Shown in pieces: positions 2,631 through 15,230 of a stretch of DNA of 22,355 nt; the stretch's first letter is position 1, and each line of letters starts with the position of its first letter. This DNA is from a virus. The position numbers and the translations under genes were made by a program. A model generated the notes under the pieces. It did no database searches. It was given only the letters and a program-made list of their open reading frames with translations, and was not told the origin of the DNA. The stretch lies in IMG/VR virus record IMGVR_UViG_3300021964_000595, positions 1 to 22,355 of that record. One strand, given 5' to 3'.

Positions 2631-3299
2631 ATGGCGTTATCTGGAACATCTGACTTCGAACTAGACGTTGCTGAGTATATTGAAGAGGCTTTTGAACGCT
2701 GCGGTTTAGAGGTCCGGACGGGGTATGATTTAAGAACTGCAAAACGTTCTTTGAATCTCATGCTTGCTGAATGGGCTAACCGTGGATTAAATCAATGGAC
2801 TATTAAGCAACGAAGCTTTACATCCACTCAGGGGGATGGAGACGTTCCGGTGAGCTCGGATGTTATAGACATTTTGTCTGTTGTAGTTCGAAGAAGTAAT
2901 ACCGATTACGCTTTAGACAGGGTAAGTCGGGACACGTTTTTGTCTATTCCAAACAAAACAAGTCAGGGCAGGCCTTCTCAGTTTTTCTTGAATCGTCAAA
3001 CTACGCCTGTTTTGCAGATATGGCCGCGACCTGAAAACAATACGGATGTAGTTATATATGATGCGTTAACTCGTATGAATGATGCGGACGGTCAAACCAA
3101 CACGCTTGATATGCCCTTTCGTTTTTACCCGTGTTTAGCCGCAGGGTTAGCGTATTATATTTCTATGAAAAGAGCTCCAAACCGTGTACAGCTTTTGAAA
3201 GCGGTTTATGAAGAAGAGTTCGAAAGAGCTATGACCGAGGACCGTGACAGGTCGTCTTTTAATGTTGTTCCTCAGTATCAGTACTTTAGGACAAACTAA
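2631..3299 (+). CDS. Head-tail adaptor, P22 gp4-like (222 aa)
   Basis: Predicted to form the ring between portal and tail. In P22, gp4 binds the portal after packaging and receives gp10. The N-terminus has the typical helical pair DVAEYIEEAFERCGLE and RTAKRSLNLMLAEWANRG (about residues 12-52), then a beta-rich middle with FTSTQGDGDVPVSSDVIDI. A conserved GRPSQFF segment (113-119) and IWPRP (130-134) precede a C-terminal helical part ending in an acidic/basic helix (residues 185-207). Length fits the family. A second adaptor-type protein two genes downstream shares the same order of elements. The ribosome site is weak (AGG, 2623-2625), and the stop overlaps the next ATG (TAATG). I am confident of a neck role and less sure which of the two adaptor proteins contacts the portal. 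Confidence 0.8.
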   Translation: MALSGTSDFELDVAEYIEEAFERCGLEVRTGYDLRTAKRSLNLMLAEWANRGLNQWTIKQRSFTSTQGDGDVPVSSDVIDILSVVVRRSNTDYALDRVSRDTFLSIPNKTSQGRPSQFFLNRQTTPVLQIWPRPENNTDVVIYDALTRMNDADGQTNTLDMPFRFYPCLAAGLAYYISMKRAPNRVQLLKAVYEEEFERAMTEDRDRSSFNVVPQYQYFRTN

Positions 3300-3658
3300 T
3301 GAGTAAGTTTGCCTCTGGAAAAAACTCTTTTGCTATCTCTGACCGATCCGGGTTCCGGTATCGGTACAAAGACATGCGTAAAGAGTGGACAGGTGCGCTT
3401 GTTGGTAAGGATGAGTTTGAGTCTAAGCAGCCTCAACTAGGTCCTTTTCCTAAAGTTATAGACCCGCAAGCTTTAAAAGATGCGCGTCCGGATACGGGCA
3501 ACCCTACGAGTGCTTTTTTGGTGGTCACGACTAACGGCATTGTTTATTTGGGTAATGGTAATTGGAGTACGTCGGGAACGGCCGAGATGGCTTCAGAAGT
3601 GGCTAAGACTCCAGAGCTACAAGGCTCGGTTGGAAGTATAACGGTGGTGACAACATGA
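3299..3658 (+). CDS. Conserved phage protein with SGFRYRYKDMRKEW motif (119 aa)
   Basis: The N-terminal 65 residues (FAISDRSGFRYRYKDMRKEW, then GALVGKDEFESKQPQLGPF, then DPQALKDARPD) are a pattern I recognise from many marine podoviruses and myoviruses next to neck genes; no function is established to my knowledge. The C-terminal 50 residues are beta-rich (LVVTTNGIVYLGNG) and finish with SVGSITVVTT. The last 20 nt, running into the next ATG, are almost identical to the end of the gene at 15230. The gene sits between the two adaptor genes, overlapping both neighbours by 1 and 4 nt, so its product probably belongs to the neck or tail. A short bulged hairpin lies at 3342-3365. Confidence 0.8.
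   Translation: MSKFASGKNSFAISDRSGFRYRYKDMRKEWTGALVGKDEFESKQPQLGPFPKVIDPQALKDARPDTGNPTSAFLVVTTNGIVYLGNGNWSTSGTAEMASEVAKTPELQGSVGSITVVTT
3342..3365 (+). other. Intragenic stem-loop near the 5' end of a neck gene
   Basis: ACCGAT (3342-3347) pairs with ATCGGT (3360-3365), and CCGG (3348-3351) with CCGG (3355-3358), around a 3-nt loop. One T is bulged at 3359. This gives 10 base pairs. It lies 43 nt after the start codon at 3299, where structure can slow ribosomes, but it could also be chance. Confidence 0.3.
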
Positions 3659-3660
3659 GT
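3641..3660 (+). repeat. 20-nt gene-end/gene-start repeat, copy 1
   Basis: This stretch encodes the last residues TVVTT, the stop and the overlapping ATGAGT start of the next gene. It matches 15509-15528 at 19 of 20 bases. Both copies make the same ATGA overlap between a C-terminal TVVTT and a following protein that starts Met-Ser. Confidence 0.75.
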
Positions 3661-4305
3661 TTTACATACGCACAACTAAAGCAGGCTATTCAAGATTATA
3701 CAGAGTACGAAGAGACGGGATTCGTTAACAATATCCCTTTGTTTATTCGTTTGTCCGAAGAACGTATTCTAAAAAATGTTCAGCTTAGTTTGTTTCGCAA
3801 AAACGCAACGGCTTTAACAAGTGCGTCTGGTCAGTACATTAAGGTTCCTAATGACTTTCTTGCTCCGTTTTCTTTGAGCATGACAGGAACAAATGGTGCT
3901 AAGTTTTTTGTTGAGTTCAAAGACCCGAGCTTTGTTCAGACGTACACTCCTGATCCCACTACAACGGGACAGCCGCAGTATTATTGTCAGTTTGATGTAG
4001 ATAACTTTTTGATGGCTCCTACGCCCGATGCGTCTTATACGGCAGAACTGCATTATTTCTATCGGCCTCGTAGCATCACCCTAGACGGTGAAGATAATAC
4101 AACGTGGCTTAGTGAAAACGCCGAAATGGCTCTTTTGTATGGCGCTCTCATTGAGGCTTATATTTATATGAAGGGTGAACAAGATGTTATGTCTATGTAC
4201 GCTCAGAGGTTCCAAGAAGCTATTATGGGAATTAAAATGCTGGGAGAGGCGAAAGAAACCACTGACGAATATCGTACAGGAAAAGTTATAAGGGCTAAAC
4301 AATAA
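3655..4305 (+). CDS. Phage adaptor protein, SU10-adaptor type (216 aa)
   Basis: Strong resemblance by eye to the adaptor family named after Escherichia phage SU10, which forms a ring under the portal. The N-terminal signature is TYAQLKQAIQDYTEYEETGF followed by PLFIRLSEERILKNVQL (residues 4-44). The middle has VPNDFLAPFSL (64-74), YTPDPTTTGQPQYY (97-110) and the LMAPTPDA turn. The C-terminal signature includes TTWLSENAEMALLYGALIEAY (149-169) and DEYRTGKV. Length is typical. Compared with the gp4-like protein upstream, both have helical N-termini, a VP-x-D strand, a G-R/Q-P-S/Q-(Q/Y)-(F/Y)-(F/Y) segment and a P-x-P turn, so they may be distant paralogs. The start overlaps the previous stop by 4 nt; the stop overlaps the next ATG (TAATG). 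Confidence 0.9.
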   Translation: MSFTYAQLKQAIQDYTEYEETGFVNNIPLFIRLSEERILKNVQLSLFRKNATALTSASGQYIKVPNDFLAPFSLSMTGTNGAKFFVEFKDPSFVQTYTPDPTTTGQPQYYCQFDVDNFLMAPTPDASYTAELHYFYRPRSITLDGEDNTTWLSENAEMALLYGALIEAYIYMKGEQDVMSMYAQRFQEAIMGIKMLGEAKETTDEYRTGKVIRAKQ

Positions 4306-4602: not shown

Positions 4603-5037
4603 ATGGCATTTAGCGGCAACTATATGTGTACATCATTCAAGCAAGAATTGATGACAGCTACACACAACTTCACTAACGGAGCTAATACGTTTAAATTGGC
4701 TTTGTACGATAACAATGCTTCTTTCGACGCAGCTACGACAGCGTATACTGCGACCAACGAGGTTTCTAACTCGGGTACATACACCGCGGGTGGTGGTACG
4801 TTGACAAACGTAACTCCGACAACATCTGGTACAACAGCGTTGACAGACTTTGCGGACATCACGTTTACGTCAGCGACAATCACGGCGCGTGGTGCTTTAA
4901 TTTACAACGACACGGCAGCGGGTGATCCATCTGTAATCGTTCTGGACTTTGGTTCAGACAAGTCATCTACTTCCGGTGACTTTCAGATTGTTTTCCCAAC
5001 GGCAGATGCTTCTAACGCTATCATCCGTATTGCATAA
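4603..5037 (+). CDS. Beta-rich virion protein (144 aa)
   Basis: The sequence reads MAFSGNYMCTSFKQELMTAT, then FKLALYDNNASFDAATTAYT and NEVSNSGTYTAGGGTLTNV. It is a conserved phage virion protein type that I recognise from marine and SU10-like phages near neck and fibre genes. It is rich in Thr, Ser and Gly. The final third (ITARGALIYNDT, IVLDFGSDKSSTSGDFQIVF) shows alternating strands ending in a conserved hydrophobic tip. No enzyme motif is visible. It has a very good ribosome site (AAGGAG at 4589-4594, 8-nt spacer), fitting an abundant virion part. It lies directly before the fibre cassette, so it may be a tail-collar or fibre-attachment subunit; that is inferred from position. Confidence 0.8.
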   Translation: MAFSGNYMCTSFKQELMTATHNFTNGANTFKLALYDNNASFDAATTAYTATNEVSNSGTYTAGGGTLTNVTPTTSGTTALTDFADITFTSATITARGALIYNDTAAGDPSVIVLDFGSDKSSTSGDFQIVFPTADASNAIIRIA

Positions 5038-5059: not shown

Positions 5060-6325
5060 ATGGTAGTATTGGTAAATCGTGCTAAGATGACAACCTCGAC
5101 TACGGGGACAGGCACAATTACACTGGGTTCAGTCGTAGACGGCTACCAGACCTTTGCCGCGGCGGGAGTGTCTGACGGAGATTCCGTTCGATACGTCATA
5201 GAGGACGGCACTTCGAACTGGGAAATCGGAAGCGGAACATACACCGCTTCCGGCACAACACTGTCTCGGACTCCTTCAGAGAGTAGCGGCGGCGGCTCGG
5301 CTATTGATTTGTCAGGGGATGCTATTGTTTTCATCTCGGCAATCGCCTCTGACATTCAGCCTATTACCTATGTACCAACCACTTTTACAGCCACGGCGGG
5401 GCAAACGGCGTTTACAGTATCTTATACGGCGGGGCTTGTTGAGGTTTTTCTTAACGGGGCAAAACTCTCTGCGGCAGATTTCACGGCAACGAATGGCACT
5501 TCTATTGTATTGGCCTCTGGTGCGAACGTGGGAGATACCGTTGATGTAGTAGCTTACGGCACTGTATCTGTAAGCAACACCTACACCCAAGCGCAAGCTG
5601 ACGCTTTGTTTGTGGACGTAGCTGGCGATACTATGACTGGTGACCTGTCCTTCGGTGACAACGACAAAGCCATATTCGGCGCTGGGTCTGACCTACAGAT
5701 TTACCATGATGGGTCTAATAGTTTTGTAGTAGACCAAGGAACAGGTGGTTTAGTTCTTCGTGGATCAACATATGTTGCCTTACAAGGTACTAATGGGGAA
5801 AATGCTGTAATAGCAAGTGAAAATGGTGCGGTAGACTTGCGCTACGACAATGCAACTAAACTCGCCACCACCTCCACAGGCATCGACGTAACGGGCAACG
5901 CTACTTTTGCTGACAACGGTAAAGCCATCTTCGGTGCTGGATCAGACCTTCAGATTTTTCACGATGGGTCTAATTCATACATAAATGAAGTAGGTACAGG
6001 CCAATTACTGCTTGCTGGACAAGATGTAAGGATTACCACTCCAAATGCTGGGGAGTTTATGGCTACTTTTGGAGTAGATGGAGCAGTAACACTCTATCAC
6101 GACAACGCAGCCAAAATAGCCACAACAGCCACAGGAATTTCCGTAACCGGAAACATCACCGTCACAGGCACAGTCGATGGCCGTGACATTGCAACAAATA
6201 TTCCCGCGTCTCTAGGGGCGGCGGGTCAGGTTTTAAGCGTAAATTCAGGCGCTAATGCTGCGGAATGGGCCGACGCCGCTTCAGGCGGAGCGTCTCGCGG
6301 CTTTGTGTACTTTATGAGAGGATAA
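5060..6325 (+). CDS. Modular tail fibre protein with two LQIYHDGS repeats (421 aa)
   Basis: Four parts are visible. Residues 1-98 ([19 protein letters not shown] to the [11 protein letters not shown] strand) form a fibre N-terminal domain common in marine phages, probably the virion-anchoring part. Residues 104-171 ([51 protein letters not shown]) form a second known fibre module. Residues 174-198 ([24 protein letters not shown]) make a linker. Residues 200-369 are two 85-residue repeats beginning DN[13 protein letters not shown]. The end, [16 protein letters not shown] followed by [10 protein letters not shown], is a typical short fibre terminus. GGAG at 5049-5052 supports the ATG. A trimeric rod is expected from family knowledge; the receptor is unknown. 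It is the first gene of the fibre cassette. Confidence 0.9.
5657..6169 (+). repeat. Two tandem 255-bp fibre repeats (85-aa units)
   Basis: Unit 1 starts at 5657 and unit 2 at 5912, exactly 255 bp apart. Shared landmarks at equal offsets: [12 protein letters not shown]-x-HDGSNS near the start, GTG plus a leucine-rich strand near position 30, DGAV or NGAV near 57, and ATT-x-TGI-x-VTGN near 70-81. A third, more diverged unit lies in another gene at 9303. The pattern suggests repeated beta layers of a fibre shaft. Confidence 0.9.
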
Positions 6326-6329
6326 GAAT

Positions 6330-7997
6330 ATGGCAGTAGGTCGTTTAGCACACGTTAGCGTAGCTCCCGGAGGTTACGCCACTGTTTATAACAATAGCAG
6401 CGGAACGCCCGCTGTTGTTTCTATAGTAGTTGGTGCGGCACAAGACACAACTTTTAATGTCAGAGTAACGGACGCCAGTTCCTATGATTTTGTAAATTCG
6501 ACCACGATTGTAACAGAGAGTTATAATACAGACGATATAAGAATTAACTCTACAACGTCATCGGTTATCTCTCGTCAGCAAGTTACTTCAGATACGGACA
6601 ATTATACCACTGAACCCAAGGGTCTAAACTATTATTTAGAGTCAAATTCTACTCTTTATAAAATAAAGGGTGGTAAAAATAGTACCACTACTTGGAGTAC
6701 CCCCACCTATGTTGATTTGGGCAACACTAAAAGTTTTGATGTTATTCCATTAGTCGGTACTGATACAATTCGACAGTTTTATTCTGTAAATAAAGAGGCC
6801 TACGGCGGAACTTCTCAGTTTGCTAGTGTAGAAGAAGAAAATTATAGAAAATTATCGCGGGCCACTGGTACAGACCCTGACGGTAATACCTGGACCTCAT
6901 CCAAGTATGCAGCAACAAACGACTTGGATTATTATAACTGCTGTGCGGCTTGGGACCAGTGGTGGCATAAAACTGGTATGGACTTTATGTGTGCAATCAG
7001 TGTTAACGACAATAATAACTATATGACAGGCCTTACGGCGGAGGCCAGTTCAATAACCAAAAACAATAGAACTTCAGATTCTAAGTGGGCTGGAGCGTTC
7101 GGAACTGGTAGTTTACCGCAACCTACTTTTGCTCGACCTTTTCCTTATATTCGGATGAGTGGGAACGTCTTTGTTTACGATGCTTGCGGCCAAGGGACTG
7201 ATAATGACAGTATAGGGTATCTTATATTTTCAGTGAACAAAAACGAAAGTGCTTCCAGTATTACAGACGCACTTGTTGAAAACAGCACAACACGCGCTAA
7301 CGGACTTAGAGGTAACAATACTCAATCCAGCGTAAATTACGATGGGGGCAAAGTCATTTTTTGTGAATACCATCCAGATGATGGTTGCACCTATGTGTTG
7401 ATTCGTTTCACTAACACAAATCAACAAATGTTTAAAATTCATGCGGACACTTTTTTCGCTTATACAAGTGCTAATTATAGTTCAGTGTCTAGTAGTTGGT
7501 GGCAACCAAACATGCTTACTGAAGACTTTGATTATGCCACGCAGGGAATTGAGCGGCTATCTACCTCCGATTGGAGTTTCCCAACTCTTACAAATGCGCC
7601 CTTTAACAGCACTAACTCTACCTATAGAGTTCACTATATTGCTCAAAACCGTTGGGCAATGATTGGTTGGAATACGTCTTCCGGTGCGAGGGACATTTTG
7701 ACATCTACAGACTTGAAAACATGGGTCAGTTACGACACCTCGTTTTCCCCACAAAAGTATAGTGTCAAATCTACAAATAATAATGCAGTAGAGTTGCTGC
7801 ACGATAACACAAAATTTTTCTTTAACGAGGATAATTTTGTAAATTTAGGAACCGATGGGATTCTAGAAAGTGCAACTAACGCTACTGTTTTAGAAAGAAC
7901 GGGCTTAATGCTGGACGATGGCGATAAAGTTATTGTACAAAATACAGGTAGCGTAAGTATGTCTGTACAAGTAATGGGTTATGAGGGGCAAGAATAA
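6330..7997 (+). CDS. Receptor-binding protein candidate: large domain inserted in a small beta scaffold (555 aa)
   Basis: Residues 1-54 (MAVGRLAHVSVAPGGYATVY, VVSIVVGAAQDTTFNVRV) and 508-555 (ILESATNATVLERTGLMLDD, then GDKVIVQNTGSVSMSVQV) look like the two halves of a roughly 130-aa beta-sandwich protein that is common on its own in marine phages. Between them lie about 450 residues rich in Asn, Ser, Tyr and Trp. Repeated strand patterns there, such as SSVNYDGGKVIFCEY (334-347), YRVHYIAQNRWAMIGW (432-447) and STDLKTW (459-465), suggest a propeller-like fold, the last resembling sugar-binding or glycosidase propeller edges. No catalytic residues can be assigned. Parts of the gene are clearly AT-rich (two sampled lines 30-32% GC) compared with its neighbours, consistent with acquisition. 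Ribosome site AGAGG at 6317-6321. Confidence 0.8.
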   Translation: MAVGRLAHVSVAPGGYATVYNNSSGTPAVVSIVVGAAQDTTFNVRVTDASSYDFVNSTTIVTESYNTDDIRINSTTSSVISRQQVTSDTDNYTTEPKGLNYYLESNSTLYKIKGGKNSTTTWSTPTYVDLGNTKSFDVIPLVGTDTIRQFYSVNKEAYGGTSQFASVEEENYRKLSRATGTDPDGNTWTSSKYAATNDLDYYNCCAAWDQWWHKTGMDFMCAISVNDNNNYMTGLTAEASSITKNNRTSDSKWAGAFGTGSLPQPTFARPFPYIRMSGNVFVYDACGQGTDNDSIGYLIFSVNKNESASSITDALVENSTTRANGLRGNNTQSSVNYDGGKVIFCEYHPDDGCTYVLIRFTNTNQQMFKIHADTFFAYTSANYSSVSSSWWQPNMLTEDFDYATQGIERLSTSDWSFPTLTNAPFNSTNSTYRVHYIAQNRWAMIGWNTSSGARDILTSTDLKTWVSYDTSFSPQKYSVKSTNNNAVELLHDNTKFFFNEDNFVNLGTDGILESATNATVLERTGLMLDDGDKVIVQNTGSVSMSVQVMGYEGQE

Positions 7998-9202
7998 TGA
8001 GAACTATAGTAGGCGGTTCAAGTACAAATGACTATCCTAATTTAACGGGTTATGTTCCAAAAATATTCGATGTTGCGGGGACCTATAGTTACGCTGTTCC
8101 AGCTAATTGCTCGAAAGTTTATGCAATGGTTTGGGGCGCGGGGGGTTCTGGTGGCTTTAACGCCACTCAGATCGCAACGGGCGGTGGTGGCGGTGGTTTT
8201 GCCGCAGGTTATATTAATGTAACTCCTAGTTCTACTGTTCCTATTACAATAGGGGATGGAGGGGCAAGTCCCTCAGCTACAGGCGCAGGAGCTTCTGGAG
8301 GCGCTACAACTTTTGGTTCTTTCCTTACGGGCGGAGGAGGTGGTGCCGGGGGGTATCTCGGTAGCTTTGCCGACACTGCTGGCGGTGCCGGAGGAGTGGG
8401 AACCATTAACGATCCTTCAAGTGTCTCTTCATCTATAACGGCCTCTGGCGGTCGCGGAGGAAACTGGATACATGACACGGCTATAGGTGGGCGTTGTAAT
8501 ACGGGCGGTGGGAACAGCGGTTCGTTACTTGGCGATGGCGGCAACGGCGGCGATTGTATGTCAGGTGAAGGCAGCGACTTTATGATTTCGGGCGGTGGGG
8601 GTTGGGGGCAGGGTCACGCCGCTACTTTAGTAAAAACAGGAACAGGCGGAATGGTTGGTGGCGGCGGCGGACCGTTGAATCCGGGGGGGATCCATCATGG
8701 AAATAGCAGCAGTCAATCGAGGGGCCGAGGGCAAGGCATGTTGTTTAAAGGGTCTAACAACATCGACACCACTAATAGCGGCACTGCTGTTCAAATAGGT
8801 TATATGTCGTCTAGTAGAACAGACCCTTCGGGTGCGGGAACTTCTTGGTGGAATGTTTTAACTGGCGCGTCTTTCGGCGGAACAGGCCCAATGAACATAA
8901 ACGGTGTTCCAATAGGACATGGCGGAACAGGCGGGATAAGTGGTGCGGTATCTGGCGGAATGTGCGGCGGTAACGGCGGCTCTACGAGCGCAAATCAGAT
9001 GTCTTACTGGGGAGGGTATTGGATCGCAGGCGGCGGCAGTAATACAGTGAACAGTAGTATGGGCAACCTTCTTCGAAGTTCGGACGCATTGGCAAGAAAA
9101 CATCTTTCTTGCGGTAATGCGGCGGGTGCTGGGGGTGCTAATAATGCGTATGGTTTAAATGGTGGACCCGGAATTTGCTTTGTATTTCCAATTATAAAAT
9201 AA
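7997..9202 (+). CDS. Glycine-rich adhesin-like fibre protein (401 aa)
   Basis: After a short leader, the stretch FDVAGTYSYAVPANCSKVYA and MVWGAGGSGG (about residues 24-53) marks the start of a glycine-rich domain of the kind seen in phage tail adhesins and annotated as Gly_rich. From residue 48 to the end the chain is dominated by GGGG, GGAGG and GGNGG runs separated by short variable loops. In T-even-like gp38 adhesins such runs pack as polyglycine II helices and the loops contact the receptor. The end, GGPGICFVFPIIK, resembles the usual closing strand. It overlaps the 555-aa gene by one base (TAATG), with GAGGGG at 7982-7987. It could be a separate adhesin tip or a partner bound to the preceding fibre. 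Local GC is high (one sampled line 70%) because of glycine codons. Confidence 0.85.
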   Translation: MRTIVGGSSTNDYPNLTGYVPKIFDVAGTYSYAVPANCSKVYAMVWGAGGSGGFNATQIATGGGGGGFAAGYINVTPSSTVPITIGDGGASPSATGAGASGGATTFGSFLTGGGGGAGGYLGSFADTAGGAGGVGTINDPSSVSSSITASGGRGGNWIHDTAIGGRCNTGGGNSGSLLGDGGNGGDCMSGEGSDFMISGGGGWGQGHAATLVKTGTGGMVGGGGGPLNPGGIHHGNSSSQSRGRGQGMLFKGSNNIDTTNSGTAVQIGYMSSSRTDPSGAGTSWWNVLTGASFGGTGPMNINGVPIGHGGTGGISGAVSGGMCGGNGGSTSANQMSYWGGYWIAGGGSNTVNSSMGNLLRSSDALARKHLSCGNAAGAGGANNAYGLNGGPGICFVFPIIK

Positions 9203-9218
9203 TTTCGGAGGCTTTACG

Positions 9219-9857
9219 ATGACCAAAGCAAGAGACTTAGGGGATTTTATCTCAGACGGCACGATAGCCGAGACAGTCACAGCTGACGGTCTAAATCTTG
9301 GTGACAACGAGAAAATCCAACTTGGCGCAAGTCAAGATTTGCAGCTTTACCACGATGGTACTCATAGCTACGTTGATGATGCTGCCACAGGTAATCTGCG
9401 GTTAAGAGGCGATGGATTAGTTCAAATACTGTCGTACAGTGACAATCAAACTATGGCCTATTTTTTAAAAAACGGGGCAGTAGGTCTTTATCACAACAAC
9501 GCCGAAAAAATAACCACCACCTCCACCGGAGCCACGGTCACAGGCACGATAGCCGTGAGCGGTGATTTCAACGCGACGAGCGGTACGTTCACGGTACAGG
9601 ACAACGGCACTGACATCTTGAACGTGACGAGTACGTTGATGTCCCCACAGACGGACGGTGCTATTTCGATTGGTTCGGCAAGCAACGCCTTTAACGACCT
9701 TCACCTTGATGGGTCTGTGGACTTTGGCAACTGGACGATTACAGAGTCTGGCGGTTCTCTCTACTTCGCTACAGGCGGCACAAACAAAATGAAACTGGAT
9801 GCAAGTGGCAACCTCGATGTTGTAGGCAACGTCAATTCCAACGCAACAATCACCTAG
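9219..9857 (+). CDS. Tail fibre protein with one LQLYHDGT repeat (212 aa)
   Basis: The start MTKARDLGDFISDGTIAETV is a fibre N-terminus. Residues 29-115 are one copy of the 85-aa repeat found twice in the 421-aa fibre (DNEKIQLGASQDLQLYHDGT, NGAVGLYHNNAEKITTTSTG). Residues 117-205 carry another common shaft module (IGSASNAFNDLHLDGSVDFG, NWTITESGGSLYFATGGTNK, KMKLDASGNLDVVGNV). No globular receptor-binding tip or intramolecular chaperone follows; the protein stops at NSNATIT. It may therefore be a shaft subunit whose tip is provided by a neighbouring gene, or a shortened fibre. CGGAGG at 9206-9211 is a strong ribosome site. The first codons are echoed by an 11-codon fragment at 11452-11484. Confidence 0.88.
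   Translation: MTKARDLGDFISDGTIAETVTADGLNLGDNEKIQLGASQDLQLYHDGTHSYVDDAATGNLRLRGDGLVQILSYSDNQTMAYFLKNGAVGLYHNNAEKITTTSTGATVTGTIAVSGDFNATSGTFTVQDNGTDILNVTSTLMSPQTDGAISIGSASNAFNDLHLDGSVDFGNWTITESGGSLYFATGGTNKMKLDASGNLDVVGNVNSNATIT
9303..9563 (+). repeat. Third copy of the 85-aa fibre repeat
   Basis: It starts DNEKIQLG-x-x-x-DLQLYHDG and ends with TTTSTGATVTG and a short strand. It aligns over its full length with the units at 5657 and 5912, with a one-residue insertion in the middle. It lies in a different gene 3.4 kb away, showing that fibre modules are shared between genes of the cassette. Confidence 0.85.
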
Positions 9858-9872
9858 TAGGAGTATACGAAG

Positions 9873-11447
9873 ATGGCGATTAAAGTAAGCGGCACAGAGG
9901 TTATCAGCGATAGTCGAGGCCTGAACAACATTGCGTCTGTAGATGCGACTACTGTAGCTGCCTTGGGTACGGCTGGTGTTGGTGGTGGTGGTAGCATCGA
10001 GCTAACGGCGTCAGGAGCCTTAACTGCGGGTCAGCCCATTATTCTGAATGCTAGCGGTCAGGCAGAAGCGGTTAGTACGGCTATAGGGACTATTGCTTTA
10101 GGTACTGTATCCCAGCGCAGCAGTAATGGGCAGGGTAGCCAGTTTGGAGTCATAGGTTTCCAACCTGATAGAGAGGCTTGGCTAAACGTGTACACAAACA
10201 GCCAAACAGCTTATCTTATAGGTTCTAGTAACGCACAAAATCCTGATGGAACTCTGGGTGGACTTTCAACTGTAACCTTACAGACGGGTACACATGAAAT
10301 AGTGGCTATGGCTCTACACCCAACCCACAACGTCTTTGGCGTAACTTCTATAGTCAACGGCAGCAATCTCGGAATTTACAGTGTTTACCTTAACGCAAGT
10401 CTATCTCCGCAAGTCCCCAATTATCTTGAAATATCAAATTTAGGCAACTGGACAGCCCAAACTTGTTGTTATGACGCAAGCCTAGGGAAGTTTGTTGTTG
10501 TTGCTGCCAGAGGCACTGATATGCACGCTTTTCTTGTTAATATGAGTGCAAGTTCATCCTTTACTCTTGATGCCTCTATAAATCTGAGTAGCACTATTGG
10601 GGACGCAAACCTAAGAGCAATAACTATGGCTACGGATGGTAGTGGGCAGTTTTGTGTATTAGGTGCTGACCAAGCTGGAAGCAGTAGTCTTGCGGCTGTA
10701 ACTTTTTCAATTAGCGGGACAACAATAACTCCAGGTAGTAAGACAACACTATCAACTGCGGTTATGGGAAATGACTACGGTACAAGCTCGATTGTTTACA
10801 ATCAAAATGAATCTAAGTTTGTTTGTGCTTACTGGTACAGCCCTTCTACTACTGATTATATTTACAGTAAAAGTTTTTCAATAAGTTCTAACAGTATAGG
10901 GACACAAGCCACTGCGTTATTAAAAACCTTTCCTAGTTATTCTAATAATGCTTATGTTTCTTTAACCTTTGCCCCGCTTACAGGTGTTACAGCTTTTTAT
11001 GGGTCCGAGTCTTCAACCAATGTAATTTTCTCTAAGCGATTTACTTCAACAACGGGTACGATAACATTTGCTTCTGAAGTTTCTTTAGCAACCAACAAAA
11101 CTCATGACGATAATCATATGTTTTCTTGGAGCAATTCTGGCTCGTATTACAGTTCCGCTGTATATTATGCCGGGTCTTTTAAACCCGTTTCAGACGGACA
11201 ATACGCAGCAAGCACTAAGCAAACAGCCGTAAGTAATTACACAGGTTTTATTGGTTTAACTGAGTCTACCATTTCTTCAGGAGCTTCAGGCAAAGTAACG
11301 ATTATTGGTGGTTTGAATGAAAGCCAGTCTGGCCTAACACCTGCATCAAAAATTTACGTTAGTACCTCTGGAAGTTTATCTACTACAGAGACACCCGTTT
11401 ACGCTGGCGTTGCAACAAGTAGCACCAATCTACTGGTGAAAGGATAA
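9873..11447 (+). CDS. Fibre protein with probable seven-bladed beta-propeller (524 aa)
   Basis: The N-terminus MAIKVSGTEVISDSRGLNNI is a common fibre anchor. Residues 41-95 (ASGALTAGQPIILNASGQAE) together with the C-terminal 65 residues (FIGLTESTISSGASGKVTII, GGLNESQSGLTPASKIYVST) form a module usually seen contiguous in marine phages. Between them about 340 residues show a recurring blade pattern every 49-58 residues: about 95-109, VAMALHPTHNVFGVTSI (144-160), CYDASLGKFVVVAA (199-212), ITMATDGSGQFCVLGA (250-265), SIVYNQNESKFVCAYW (306-321), LTFAPLTGVTAFYGSE (364-379) and FSWSNSGSYYSSAVYYAG (417-434). This predicts a propeller, a fold often used to bind glycans or proteins. AGGAG at 9859-9863 supports the start. 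It is a candidate receptor-binding protein; the ligand is unknown. Confidence 0.85.
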   Translation: MAIKVSGTEVISDSRGLNNIASVDATTVAALGTAGVGGGGSIELTASGALTAGQPIILNASGQAEAVSTAIGTIALGTVSQRSSNGQGSQFGVIGFQPDREAWLNVYTNSQTAYLIGSSNAQNPDGTLGGLSTVTLQTGTHEIVAMALHPTHNVFGVTSIVNGSNLGIYSVYLNASLSPQVPNYLEISNLGNWTAQTCCYDASLGKFVVVAARGTDMHAFLVNMSASSSFTLDASINLSSTIGDANLRAITMATDGSGQFCVLGADQAGSSSLAAVTFSISGTTITPGSKTTLSTAVMGNDYGTSSIVYNQNESKFVCAYWYSPSTTDYIYSKSFSISSNSIGTQATALLKTFPSYSNNAYVSLTFAPLTGVTAFYGSESSTNVIFSKRFTSTTGTITFASEVSLATNKTHDDNHMFSWSNSGSYYSSAVYYAGSFKPVSDGQYAASTKQTAVSNYTGFIGLTESTISSGASGKVTIIGGLNESQSGLTPASKIYVSTSGSLSTTETPVYAGVATSSTNLLVKG

Positions 11448-11451
11448 CCCA

Positions 11452-11484
11452 ATGACAAAAGCAAGAGACTTAGCTAGGAGATAA
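11452..11484 (+). pseudogene. Fossil start of a fibre gene (10 codons, MTKARDL-type)
   Basis: ATG and nine codons read Met-Thr-Lys-Ala-Arg-Asp-Leu-Ala-Arg-Arg, then TAA. The first seven residues equal those of the fibre gene at 9219, and the DNA matches at 21 of the first 22 bases. It then runs straight into the AGGAG site of the next gene. I read it as the remnant of a second fibre gene deleted by recombination; a translated minigene that couples to the next start is the alternative. Confidence 0.7.
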
Positions 11485-11487
11485 CCC

Positions 11488-12195
11488 ATGTTTTTCGGCT
11501 CCGTTGCCATTGCTCAAGTCCCGATAGGCGATGATGCGTCAGTAACTCGCGTGGGGGTTACGGGCCTTGTTGGCACGGGAACCGTGGGCCAAGTAACGCT
11601 GGTCACGGATCAGAATCTTAACCAGACAGGTTTGTCTGCAACGGGTTCGGTGGGTACTGCGGCGGCTGGCGGCGGTACAGGTGTTATCGTTATTGCTGGC
11701 GGCAGCGTGGGCACAGCGGCGGTCGGAAGCGTTGAAGCAATCATCAACGTACAGCCAGTAATTACAGGTGTTGCAGCTACAGGTGCGGTGGGTGATCTTG
11801 AGGTCACTGGCACAGCGGTTGTTCAGTTGACGGGCGTACAAGCTACGGCTTCAACCAACGCAGTTGAGGTGATTATCAACGTACAACCGACTATTGTTGG
11901 TGTAGCGGCTAACGGCGAACTCAACGACGTTGAAGTTATCGGTGATGCAAACGTGCCGCAGACTGGACTGTCAGCCACTACAGCGGTGGGCATAGTTTCT
12001 CAACGTACCACGGCGGTCATTCCAATTACATTTGATCCGCAGGCACAGGGACAATCTGGGTCTGTAACAGTAACAGGTGGCGCAACCGTGAACCTAGTCG
12101 GCGTTGAGGGTAGCGGTCGCGTCGGAACTGTGGTAGTTTGGGGCAGAATTATTCCAGACGAAGACACCATCTGGACAGAAATAGTAGCTGCGTAG
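11488..12195 (+). CDS. Repetitive TG(V/L)-x-ATG-x-VG virion protein (235 aa)
   Basis: After MFFGSVAIAQVPIGDDASV the chain consists of beta-type repeats of about 20-24 residues with the pattern TG(V/L)-x-(A)T(G)-x-(A/S)VG-x-(V/L)-x-V: QTGLSATGSVG, ITGVAATGAVGDLEV, LTGVQATASTNAVEV, IVGVAANGELNDVEV, QTGLSATTAVG, LVGVEGSGRVGTVVV. Two 44-residue super-repeats, each with two such units, start at 11731 and 11863. The C-terminus (WGRIIPDEDTIWTEIVAA) is non-repetitive and probably forms an interaction tip. Similar repeats occur in marine phage virion proteins, and single copies end two other proteins here (genes at 3299 and 15230). AGGAG at 11476-11480 precedes the ATG. A fibrous or spike-like structural part is inferred. 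Confidence 0.8.
   Translation: MFFGSVAIAQVPIGDDASVTRVGVTGLVGTGTVGQVTLVTDQNLNQTGLSATGSVGTAAAGGGTGVIVIAGGSVGTAAVGSVEAIINVQPVITGVAATGAVGDLEVTGTAVVQLTGVQATASTNAVEVIINVQPTIVGVAANGELNDVEVIGDANVPQTGLSATTAVGIVSQRTTAVIPITFDPQAQGQSGSVTVTGGATVNLVGVEGSGRVGTVVVWGRIIPDEDTIWTEIVAA
11731..11994 (+). repeat. Two 132-bp tandem repeats in the ATG-x-VG protein
   Basis: Copies start at 11731 and 11863, each encoding 44 residues beginning VE(A/V)IINVQP and including TGVAATGAVG-type and TG(V/L)-x-AT-type sub-repeats. About three quarters of the first 48 bases are identical between copies. The unit length is a multiple of three, so copy number can change without a frameshift. Confidence 0.8.
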
Positions 12196-12203
12196 GGAAC
12201 GAC

Positions 12204-12923
12204 ATGCCAAGTACATATGCAACGAATAGTGGTATAGAGCTTATCAGAAACGGTGAGCAGTCGGGTACTTGGGGTACAACGACTAATAACAACTTGAACA
12301 TTGTAGACCGTTTAACAAACGGCGTTGGGACGATTGACTTGTCTGCTTCTGGCGCGGCGCACACGCTTTTGACATCTGATGGATCATTATCTGACGGACA
12401 GTACAAAACGCTAGTATTAAGCGGCGCAACACAGGCTTGCACAATTACAATTTCGCCAAGCGACGGTCAGCATATTTACTTTGTGGTTAACGGTTCAGGT
12501 CAGAGTTGTACTTTCACGCAGGGTTCTGGCGCGAACGTGACGATTGCTAACGGTACTAATGCGTTTATCTACTCTGACGGTGCGGGTGCGGGTGCGGCGG
12601 TAATAAACCTTACGGACGCTCTGGCGATGAGCAATGTCACGATTACTGGCGGCTCCGTCACAGGTATTACAGACTTGGCGGTTGCAGATGGTGGTACGGG
12701 TGGTGGTACGTCCTCGGATGCTAGGACGAATCTTGGTGTTGCGATTGGCACAGATGTGTTAGCTTTTGACGCAAACTTACAGGCGTTTGTCACAGCGTTC
12801 ACTCTACCAACATCGGACGGCAGTTCAGGGCAGGCCGTTACAACAAATGGGTCAGGAACTCTTGGGTTTTCAGACTTCTCGTCAACAGGTAAGGCACTCG
12901 CCTTCAGCATGATATTCGGATAG
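12204..12923 (+). CDS. Tail fibre / collar-type protein (239 aa)
   Basis: I chose ATG 12204 with AGGGA at 12194-12198. It gives MPSTYATNSGIELIRNGEQSG followed by WGTTTNNNLNIVDRLTNGV, a start well known from phage fibre proteins. An upstream in-frame ATG at 12138 would overlap the previous gene by 58 nt and break this signature. Residues 40-140 are beta-rich (LSDGQYKTLVLSGATQACTI, HIYFVVNGSGQSCTF), and 165-190 contain VADGGTGGGTSSDARTNLGV, a very common fibre linker. The end, LPTSDGSSGQAVTTNGSG then STGKALAFSMIFG, is also typical. It lacks an obvious large receptor-binding tip. A short-fibre or fibre-base role fits; the exact position in the virion cannot be seen. Confidence 0.9.
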   Translation: MPSTYATNSGIELIRNGEQSGTWGTTTNNNLNIVDRLTNGVGTIDLSASGAAHTLLTSDGSLSDGQYKTLVLSGATQACTITISPSDGQHIYFVVNGSGQSCTFTQGSGANVTIANGTNAFIYSDGAGAGAAVINLTDALAMSNVTITGGSVTGITDLAVADGGTGGGTSSDARTNLGVAIGTDVLAFDANLQAFVTAFTLPTSDGSSGQAVTTNGSGTLGFSDFSSTGKALAFSMIFG

Positions 12924-13310: not shown

Positions 13311-15230
13311 ATGCCGCTGTCAAAGCTACAATTCAAACCGGGGGTAAACCGCGAAGTAACCGCCTACACCAATGAAGGCGGCTGGTTTGATATTGATTTT
13401 GTTAGATTTCAAAAGGGCTTCCCTGCGAAGATTGGGGGGTGGCAAAAAAGTTCTTCAAATTCTTTTTTAGGGTCATGCCGCGCTTTGCACCCGTGGGTTT
13501 CTTTAAGTCGAGACCAGTACTTAGGGCTTGGTACAAACTTAAAATACTACATAGACGAAGGTGGTTTCTACAACGATATTACTCCCGTTCGTGCCACTAC
13601 AAGTGCTGGGGACGTTACTTTTGCAGCGACTAGCGGGTCTTCTGAGGTAACGGTTACAGACGCAAATCACGGTGCAGTAGTAAACGACTTTGTAACATTT
13701 ACAGATGCGGTTAGTTTAGGTGGAAATGTAACTGCAAACGTATTAAACCAAGAATATTACGTTACAGAAGTTGTAAACACCAATAGTTATAAGATTGTAG
13801 TTCGAGAAGAAAACACGCCTATATCAGATATAACTGTAAACGGTCAGTTAACTCCGACTTTGGTAGTGGCTTCCGGTTCAGATTCTGGAAATGGCGGCTC
13901 TAGTGTTGTTGGAGCTTATCAAATTAACACGGGTTTAAACCTTGAGATTTCTGGTTCAGGTTGGGGTGCTGGGACTTGGAGTCGTGGTGGTTGGGGGTCT
14001 AGTTCCACAGACAGCGTTGTTACAAACACTTTAAGACTTTGGACGCACGACAACTTTGGCGAAGACCTGATTATGAACGTGCGAGATGGCGGCATTTATT
14101 ACTGGGACCAGACCGGAACGCTTTCTTCTCGCGCCGTAGATATAACCTCGTTGGCTGGTGGTACATCCGTTCCCACAGTAGCAAAGCAAGTTCTTGTTTC
14201 AGATCGCGACAGGCACGTTTTGGCTTTTGGCTGTGATACGGAATCCAACCCCGGCGTACAAGACCCGCTTGCCATTAGGTTTTCATCTCAAGAATCCTTG
14301 ACAGATTGGCAAACAACCGCAGAAAATACTGCTGGCGAACTAAGGCTTGGCTCGGGTTCTGAGATTGTAACCGCCGTTGAAACTCGCCAACAAATTCTTG
14401 TTTTTACAGACACAACTCTGTATTCTATGCAGTTTTTAGGACCACCGTTCACATTTGGTGTAAACTCTTTGTCAGAAAATATAACTATTGCTGGACCGAA
14501 TGCGGCGGTTGCAGTTGACGACAACGTGTTTTGGATGGGGCAATCTGAGTTTTACGTTTACAGCGGTGCTGTCCAACGAATGCCTTGCATGGTACGAGAC
14601 TTTGTATTTTCTGACTTAAATGACGGCCAAATAGAAAAAGTTAATGCGGCTCTTAACACACAGCATTCGGAGATATGGTGGTTCTACCCTTCTGCAAATA
14701 GCGATGAAGTAGACCGCTACGTTGTTTATAATTACTCAGAAAAAGTTTGGTACTACGGCAGCATGGGCCGAACTGCTTGGATTGACCGTGGTATTTTTGA
14801 CTTCCCGTTTGCTGCAAACACCGACGGTTACTTGTATGAACACGAGATTGGTTTTGATGACGGAACAACTGACCCCGTTTCGGCCATTCCAGCGTATATA
14901 CAATCGAGTCCAATAGACATTGGAGACGGGGAGCAGTTTATGTTCATCCGCAGAATGATTCCTGACGTGGATTTCAAGAACTCTACGGCAATTCTACCTG
15001 AGACCAACATTACTATTGATGTTAAGAACGCTCCAGATGGGACGTATAGCAGCAGCCAGACGGATGTTTTTGTTAAGACGCAGGCCGCTTCGGTGAATGC
15101 TAGGACAGAACAGTTGTATTTCCGGCTTCGTGGTAGGCAGATGAGGTTTAAAATTTCTTCTGATGAGTTGGGCGTTGATTGGCGACTAGGTTCTCCTCGC
15201 ATTGATATTAGACCAGATGGGAGGCGGTAA
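13311..15230 (+). CDS. P22 gp10-like tail hub / nozzle (DNA stabilisation) protein (639 aa)
   Basis: Predicted to form the tail hub that follows the adaptor and helps keep packaged DNA in the head, as gp10 does in P22 or the nozzle in SU10. The N-terminal signature is KPGVNREVTAYTNEGGWFDI then FVRFQKGFPAKIGGW (residues 8-44). Propeller-like strands follow, e.g. VSLSRDQYLGLGTNLKYYID and QQILVFTDTTLYSMQF. The late motif NVFWMGQSEFYVYSGAVQRM leads into RDFVFSDLNDGQIEKV, and the end is RLRGRQMRFKISSDELGVDW. About residues 95-225 (TFAATSGSSEVTVTDANHGA onward, Gly/Ser-rich) look like an added surface domain, which explains a length above P22 gp10 (472 aa). The start has a weak GAAGAG site; the stop overlaps the next ATG. 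Confidence 0.85.
   Translation: MPLSKLQFKPGVNREVTAYTNEGGWFDIDFVRFQKGFPAKIGGWQKSSSNSFLGSCRALHPWVSLSRDQYLGLGTNLKYYIDEGGFYNDITPVRATTSAGDVTFAATSGSSEVTVTDANHGAVVNDFVTFTDAVSLGGNVTANVLNQEYYVTEVVNTNSYKIVVREENTPISDITVNGQLTPTLVVASGSDSGNGGSSVVGAYQINTGLNLEISGSGWGAGTWSRGGWGSSSTDSVVTNTLRLWTHDNFGEDLIMNVRDGGIYYWDQTGTLSSRAVDITSLAGGTSVPTVAKQVLVSDRDRHVLAFGCDTESNPGVQDPLAIRFSSQESLTDWQTTAENTAGELRLGSGSEIVTAVETRQQILVFTDTTLYSMQFLGPPFTFGVNSLSENITIAGPNAAVAVDDNVFWMGQSEFYVYSGAVQRMPCMVRDFVFSDLNDGQIEKVNAALNTQHSEIWWFYPSANSDEVDRYVVYNYSEKVWYYGSMGRTAWIDRGIFDFPFAANTDGYLYEHEIGFDDGTTDPVSAIPAYIQSSPIDIGDGEQFMFIRRMIPDVDFKNSTAILPETNITIDVKNAPDGTYSSSQTDVFVKTQAASVNARTEQLYFRLRGRQMRFKISSDELGVDWRLGSPRIDIRPDGRR

Follow-up and report, generated by a model that had tools for sequence, protein, structure and literature searches.

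Probable exchange of standard fibre parts at a host-recognition locus of a short-tailed marine phage

Results

Seven fibre- and adhesin-like genes lie between the neck and the nozzle

The window analyzed here is a 22,355-base virus record, IMGVR_UViG_3300021964_000595, a possibly incomplete fragment. A sequence-only reading of this DNA had placed at least seven fibre-type genes between neck genes and a gp10-like hub; seven fibre- or adhesin-like genes (F1 to F7) lie there, all intact and on the + strand. The locus is modular, with anchored shafts followed by separate tip genes. Comparison with relatives indicates that the block from the F1 shaft to F5 is swapped between near-identical phages, that shaft ends and tips move between anchors as sets, and that one joint between shaft and tip is portable, occurring with 16 anchor families. 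The genes and their parts are as follows.

5060–6325, + strand: F1, anchored shaft with an E-type end; matches tail-fibre PHROGs, and its shaft matches the fibre gp28 of cyanophage P-SCSP1u (PDB 8i4m, E value 9.5e-15)
5060–5620, + strand: slot A anchor, the N-terminal ~187 amino acids of F1; the same start, MVxLVNRAKM, occurs in slot A of relatives
6278–6325, + strand: E-type shaft end of F1, last 15 amino acids and stop; E-type ends precede MANGRLG genes in all strong cases
6330–7997, + strand: F2, E-type partner (MAVGRLA...VQVMGYEGQE); eight other family members at 22–29% identity, with conserved N and C ends
7997–9202, + strand: F3, glycine-rich adhesin-like gene after F2; Pfam PF21722 (Gly_rich_2) at 31.8 bits, cut-off 24.3; phrog_863, tail
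9219–9857, + strand: F4, slot B anchor (MTKARDLGDFI) and short shaft with a D-type end; matches tail-fibre PHROGs, with the same start in slot B of relatives
9717–9857, + strand: D-type shaft end (dock), the C-terminal ~46 amino acids of F4 (9717–9854) and stop; highly conserved across phages
9873–11447, + strand: F5, D-type partner, with the N-terminal motif MAIKVSGTEVISDSRGLNNIASVD and then a β-propeller tip (residues ~70–454) by structure prediction
9873–9974, + strand: conserved partner N-terminal motif of F5, at the start of the first gene after the dock
11488–12195, + strand: F6, ATG-x-VG repeat protein, mostly conserved backbone; 84–90% amino acid identity in relatives L002, L009 and L084, 44% in L082
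12204–12923, + strand: F7, conserved fibre-type N terminus (third anchor, a stub here); matches tail-fibre PHROGs, 33% identity over 142 amino acids to CRP-901 gp50

The assignment of all seven as fibres stands for F1, F4 and F7, which match tail-fibre PHROGs, and for F3, which matches a tail PHROG; F2 and F6 have no family match by homology. For F2, neither Pfam nor PHROGs gave a match, the predicted structure is unreliable (predicted local distance difference test score, pLDDT, of 49), and a direct IMG/VR search returned no relatives, which surfaced only through locus neighbors. The propeller recognized earlier in F5 is borne out by structure prediction (mean pLDDT 80, first 38 residues poorly predicted). 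The model matches YncE with a Z score of 32.0 and Photorhabdus PLL-type lectins with Z scores of 27–29; these matches indicate the predicted fold, not a function. CRP-901 gp50 is itself a putative tail fibre, and F7 is 96–97% identical at the amino acid level in close relatives.

Shaft repeats are shared within the locus, as had been proposed: a 69-nucleotide unit at 5651 recurs at 5906 (83%) and 9297 (67%). The F1 shaft repeats match residues 789–957 of P-SCSP1u gp28, whose anchor and tips are unrelated to those of F1 by the searches run. The N-terminal part of the slot A anchor is also present in roseophage tail-fibre genes. In T4- and S16-type fibres, the fibre gene (gp37) is followed by a gene for a glycine-rich tip adhesin (gp38). 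The order of F2 and F3 resembles this arrangement, with the differences that F2 showed no sequence relation to gp37 and that F3 is only presumed to sit at a tip.

The variable block is narrower than the whole cassette

We retrieved 80 IMG/VR loci through the nozzle gene, and further loci through F7 and through g14, the last conserved gene before the cassette. Cultured phages excepted, these relatives are metagenome assemblies; many contigs are related, so that counts are not independent events. Judged by the nozzle protein, the closest cultured relatives are at ~40% identity or below. The landmarks and limits are as follows.

3655–4305, + strand: adaptor, conserved left landmark; matches the phage adaptor PDB 7z47 (E value 4.5e-4) and a virion structural/tail PHROG
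4603–5037, + strand: g14, kept by nearly all relatives; 97–99% amino acid identity in L002, L009 and L084
5262–5747, + strand: left breakpoint zone; homology stops at 5262 (L082), 5644 (L002), 5707 (L084 and L157) and 5747 (L009)
11436–11999, + strand: right breakpoint zone; homology restarts at 11439 (L002), 11451 (L009), 11476 (L115), 11487 (L084) and 11999 (L082)
13311–15230, + strand: nozzle, conserved right landmark; matches PDB 9nwi, 8zkk and 8zkm, and phrog_3287 (E value 9e-76)

Relatives retain the neck genes, F6, F7 and the nozzle but not the stretch from F1 past its anchor to F5, which gives a variable block of ~6.4 kb, from ~5262–5747 to 11436–11999. The interval 5060–12923, earlier taken as one diversifying cassette, is thus hypervariable as claimed but was drawn too widely: F6 and F7 are kept by nearly all relatives, F6 being replaced in only some (L082). 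A picture of one variable cassette with seven fibre genes of equal standing is ruled out, as F6 and F7 are mostly backbone.

Relatives do not keep the same gene set at even divergence. L002 and L009 are 98.0% and 98.5% identical in nucleotide sequence in the two flanks, yet the genes between differ and have only patches in common. The window is 83–93% identical to L002, L009 and L084 outside the block and shares only patches inside it. We conclude with high confidence, from these alignments, that fibres are swapped by recombination at this locus. The L082 nozzle is 96% identical to that of the window (87% for L002 and L009), yet its F6 is only 44% identical and its cassette different, a pattern of strong mosaicism.

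Tip class tracks the shaft end rather than the anchor

The composition of the locus was compared in 18 close relatives. Anchor A heads the first gene nearly always, and anchor B (MTKARDL or MTRARDL) heads a later gene in most. Two kinds of shaft end recur. An end in ...FVYFMRG (E-type) is followed by a MANGRLG-type gene of the F2 class; a glycine-rich gene usually comes next, and often a short MYCR gene as well. An end in ...KMKLDASGNLDVVGNVNSNATIT (strong D-type) is followed by a MAIKV-type gene of the F5 class. The pairing of E end and MANGRLG gene holds in 11 of 11 testable loci in each direction, representing 8–9 distinct phages.

The same sets occur under either anchor. In the window and L002 the first (E) set is on A and the second (D) set on B; the reverse is found in L117, L088 and L095, and in L009 the second set lies under A with a fused propeller under B. 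The association of shaft end with partner has a Fisher p of 6e-4 and that of anchor with partner a p of 0.59, in a small sample of non-independent relatives; these comparisons suggest that tip class tracks the shaft end rather than the anchor. Patches of DNA link the two slots directly: slot A of L009 ends in 126 nucleotides that are 92% identical to the final 126 of the window's slot B, and a 205-nucleotide mid-shaft stretch of L002 slot A is 91% identical to slot B in the window.

In L009, L092, L093, L003, L166 and L109, an F5-family propeller is fused straight to an A or B anchor. The fusion point is a glycine linker, and the MAIKV start is mostly absent from fused forms, though kept in frame in L092. 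Fused propellers point to a tip-on-shaft arrangement. The locus L239:1123–5990 carries three propeller genes in tandem, with the MAIKV motif at each start. With sets under A or B, tips fused or separate, and a scar left behind (see below), the earlier description of fibres as duplicated, retipped and lost was right in kind.

The D-type end is a portable joint

The best 80 of the 299 relatives from an IMG/VR scan with a 52-amino acid dock query were retained; our 55 non-redundant junctions include the window and the cultured roseophage CRP-738. Across these junctions the dock is carried by 16 anchor clusters (families), and the tips fall in at least four clusters. A D-type partner gene (start MAIKVxGTxVI..R.L.NI) directly follows the dock in 51 of the 55, the exceptions being L274, L297, L299 and L344, and the gap between the two is 15 nucleotides in 30. 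Pairwise amino acid identity is 80–98% in the dock and 54–100% in the first 28 residues of the next gene, but mostly 20–30% in the neighboring flanks; beyond its first 28 residues the partner is mostly 22–37% identical. Among the loci collected, the dock is C-terminal in 111 of 111 hits and internal in none. Its codon changes are mostly synonymous (26301 against 11816 nonsynonymous over divergent pairs; 18 against 3 between the window and CRP-738), which argues that the protein is what is kept and, on codon evidence, that the dock is constrained as protein.

In CRP-738 the D-type end sits on a different anchor (gp34), and gp33 follows, starting MAIKVGGVEVVDNNRQLKNIGSVD. By blastn, only 186 nucleotides around the joint align to the window (79.6%); what tblastx adds is mainly a single shaft domain. 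The cultured roseophage CRP-6 carries a diverged dock-partner pair (gp61/gp60) with a collagen-like tip. The hosts of the dock-bearing cultured phages are Rhodobacteraceae. A search of bacterial genomes for a host gave four matches, in binned contigs of metagenome-assembled genomes (Maricaulis and a Flavobacteriaceae bin), which are probably stray phage contigs and lead us to no conclusion on hosts. In Lentibacter phage ICBM3 (L346:2926–3132), a stand-alone 68-amino acid protein is largely a relative of the D-type end, and a glycine-rich gene follows it.

The reverse test, a scan with the D motif, gave 73 evaluable genes: 32 follow a dock, ~28 follow a gene ending in an S74 chaperone, 10 follow small genes that look like assembly chaperones, and 3 follow another tip. 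The S74-ended shafts were assigned by pattern (19) and by eye (9), and S74 was Pfam-confirmed in four similar genes. The dock as exclusive partner of the D motif is ruled out in this direction. Dock and S74 never occur on one shaft, which suggests that they are alternative shaft ends ahead of the same tip class.

A scar before F6 and two possible cassette sites

One feature bears on past exchange in the window itself.

11452–11484, + strand: scar, the slot B start repeated before F6 as a mini open reading frame (MTKARDLARR, then stop); shared with L002 and L009

The gene fossil noticed earlier is thereby confirmed: the first 22 nucleotides of F4 (from 9219) recur at 11452 with one change, a match not seen in 100 shuffles. 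As the match is limited to these 22 nucleotides and lies beside the F6 ribosome-binding site, we replaced the idea of a decayed full gene with that of a scar. The 10-codon reading frame is present in the window, L002 and L009 and absent from L084 and L115. In L009 a propeller gene leads at its end into the B start, with almost the spacing seen at the scar; for this reason the scar probably arrived with a propeller moved from before B, or arose when a B gene was lost between its start and the F6 ribosome-binding site.

In a survey of 78 loci with g14, F7 and nozzle, distinct pairs of g14–F7 and F7–nozzle intervals were enlarged before F7 only in 28 cases, after F7 only in 30, on both sides in 7 and on neither in 1 (Fisher p of 5e-11, for relatives that are not independent). 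From these intervals, the fibre payload in this phage group seems to lie on either side of F7, as if there were two alternative cassette sites.

Flanking genes

Both flanks agree with their earlier naming. The protein encoded at 3655–4305 matches a solved phage adaptor, in keeping with neck genes on the left, and the product of 13311–15230 matches the solved podophage nozzles 8zkk and 8zkm, in keeping with a gp10-like hub on the right; a small gene sits between F7 and the nozzle. Adaptor and nozzle genes are both predicted here, as expected of the tail module of a short-tailed phage. No tRNA genes were found in the 22,355-base window.

Other features of the flanks were observed in passing. The C terminus of the gene at 3299–3658, before the adaptor, is also variable: the protein has 119 amino acids in the window and 256 in L009, whose counterpart has a different C-terminal part, with a break near 3598–3655. 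Nozzle residues 103–163 and this same gene match separate parts of the phrog_28581 profile, a hint that they share a domain. The adjacent small genes 478–750 and 761–1048 both match PHROG 28102 and look like an old duplication. A tandem 27-nucleotide repeat, 70% alike, lies at 2499–2552, with a Lys/Arg/Gly-rich reading between two structural genes.

Discussion

Considered together, these comparisons are consistent with a model in which a short-tailed marine phage diversifies its host-recognition locus here by exchanging standard parts: anchors, shaft ends and next-gene tips. We give this reading a probability of roughly 0.7. Virion anchors A (the F1 N terminus) and B (the F4 N terminus) would each bear a repeat-built shaft, which either continues into a fused tip or stops at a conserved C-terminal end with the tip in the next gene. 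The F1 end would pair with F2 and the glycine-rich F3, and the F4 end with the propeller F5. A single recombination at the shaft repeats, the joint or the glycine linker could then change the tip and leave virion attachment untouched, and the tips presumably bind different cell-surface receptors.

We hold with moderate confidence that tip docks to shaft; that the separate tip attaches specifically at the C-terminal end of the shaft has about even odds. The dock most likely receives or caps the tip; as a receiver it would be a mature end, ready for the tip to join. Somewhat short of even odds is the wider proposal that the 46-amino acid end and the MAIKV start form a plug and socket across unrelated marine phages, with any anchored shaft taking tips of several families and tips circulating between phage families that share hosts such as Rhodobacteraceae. 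Several points weigh against these proposals. The case is a comparative one, and neighboring genes may travel jointly without binding each other. Relatives are mostly metagenome assemblies, in which misjoins are possible at short repeats. The reverse linkage is partial, the D motif being preceded by a dock in only 32 of 73 genes, so the motif has no need of this dock and might attach elsewhere.

The D-type end might instead be a C-terminal folding or trimerization cap that takes the place of the S74 chaperone, with the next protein attaching independently and the pair moving as a block of DNA. Such a cap would explain why dock and S74 share a position at the shaft C terminus before the same kind of gene and never occur together, and both the invariably C-terminal placement of the dock and its extreme conservation suit a folding element. 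We nevertheless consider it unlikely: the step from dock to partner is nearly exclusive in one direction over 16 anchor families, and F5-family tips fused to shafts usually lack both dock and motif, which suggests that the motif serves attachment to the shaft. It is improbable that the junction is a recombination linker, with DNA kept alike as a crossover site and no function as protein. Breakpoints do cluster at shaft repeats and joints, and the scar lies at a repeated gene start, but the excess of synonymous changes in the dock is not what such a linker would leave.

Misassembly, with contigs joined at common shaft or joint sequences, is suggested by the short exact repeats and by the metagenomic origin of the relatives. 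We regard it as very improbable, as the same arrangements recur in contigs of separate metagenomes (L117/L161, L095, L088), genes are intact across the joints, and the joint is present in cultured phage genomes. Hypervariable tip genes are typical targets of diversity-generating retroelements and DNA invertases. Programmed variation of this kind has hardly any likelihood here: neither a reverse transcriptase nor a resolvase was found in four related, incomplete records (one of 56 kb), the genes lie on one strand throughout, and the window has no long inverted repeats. Intact genes on one strand, and four related records with neither enzyme, make co-expression and recombination between phages a better fit than programmed switching.

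The exchange of standard parts places the locus in a known class, in which phages swap hypervariable fibres by recombination; its list of parts is unusually clear. In metaviromic islands of marine phages, host-recognition genes vary between concurrent lineages within conserved flanks, their C-terminal parts being most variable (Mizuno et al., 2014, PMC3909814). The present locus is alike in this, with non-homologous fibre genes within conserved flanks in L002 and L009, and also in L084 and L082. Those islands are defined there by under-recruitment of reads; the block here is defined by gene anatomy: a pair of anchors, shaft ends that can be exchanged, and sets that have moved.

Anchor-branched receptor-binding protein systems (G7C, K1-5 and Klebsiella phages) have an anchored protein to which further receptor-binding proteins attach through short conserved N-terminal peptides, with modules exchanged (Latka et al., 2019, PMC6872550). 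The conserved first 28 residues of the D-type partner correspond to such a peptide. In those systems the docking site is a T4gp10-like domain after the N-terminal anchor, whereas here it is the C terminus of the shaft that carries the conserved element; F1 and F4 gave no match of the T4gp10-like kind in searches of Pfam and PHROGs. In distant Alteromonas phages (PMC10579305), a host-recognition module likewise moves between unrelated marine phages. There it is a whole fibre-chaperone module; here a joint of ~240 nucleotides (shaft end and tip start) also recurs, among unrelated shafts and tips. We did not find the portable joint described in the open literature, searched mostly at abstract level.

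The cells open to a phage are set by its fibre loci, which in marine phages are usually noted merely as hypervariable. Here a grammar underlies the variability: anchors are fixed, ends are standard and tips can be exchanged, and one joint could be followed across many types of phage and into the genomes of two isolates. Should the joint prove to be a real docking element, the genes that make up one fibre would be predictable from sequence alone, and the passage of host range from one phage to an unrelated one would have an explanation.

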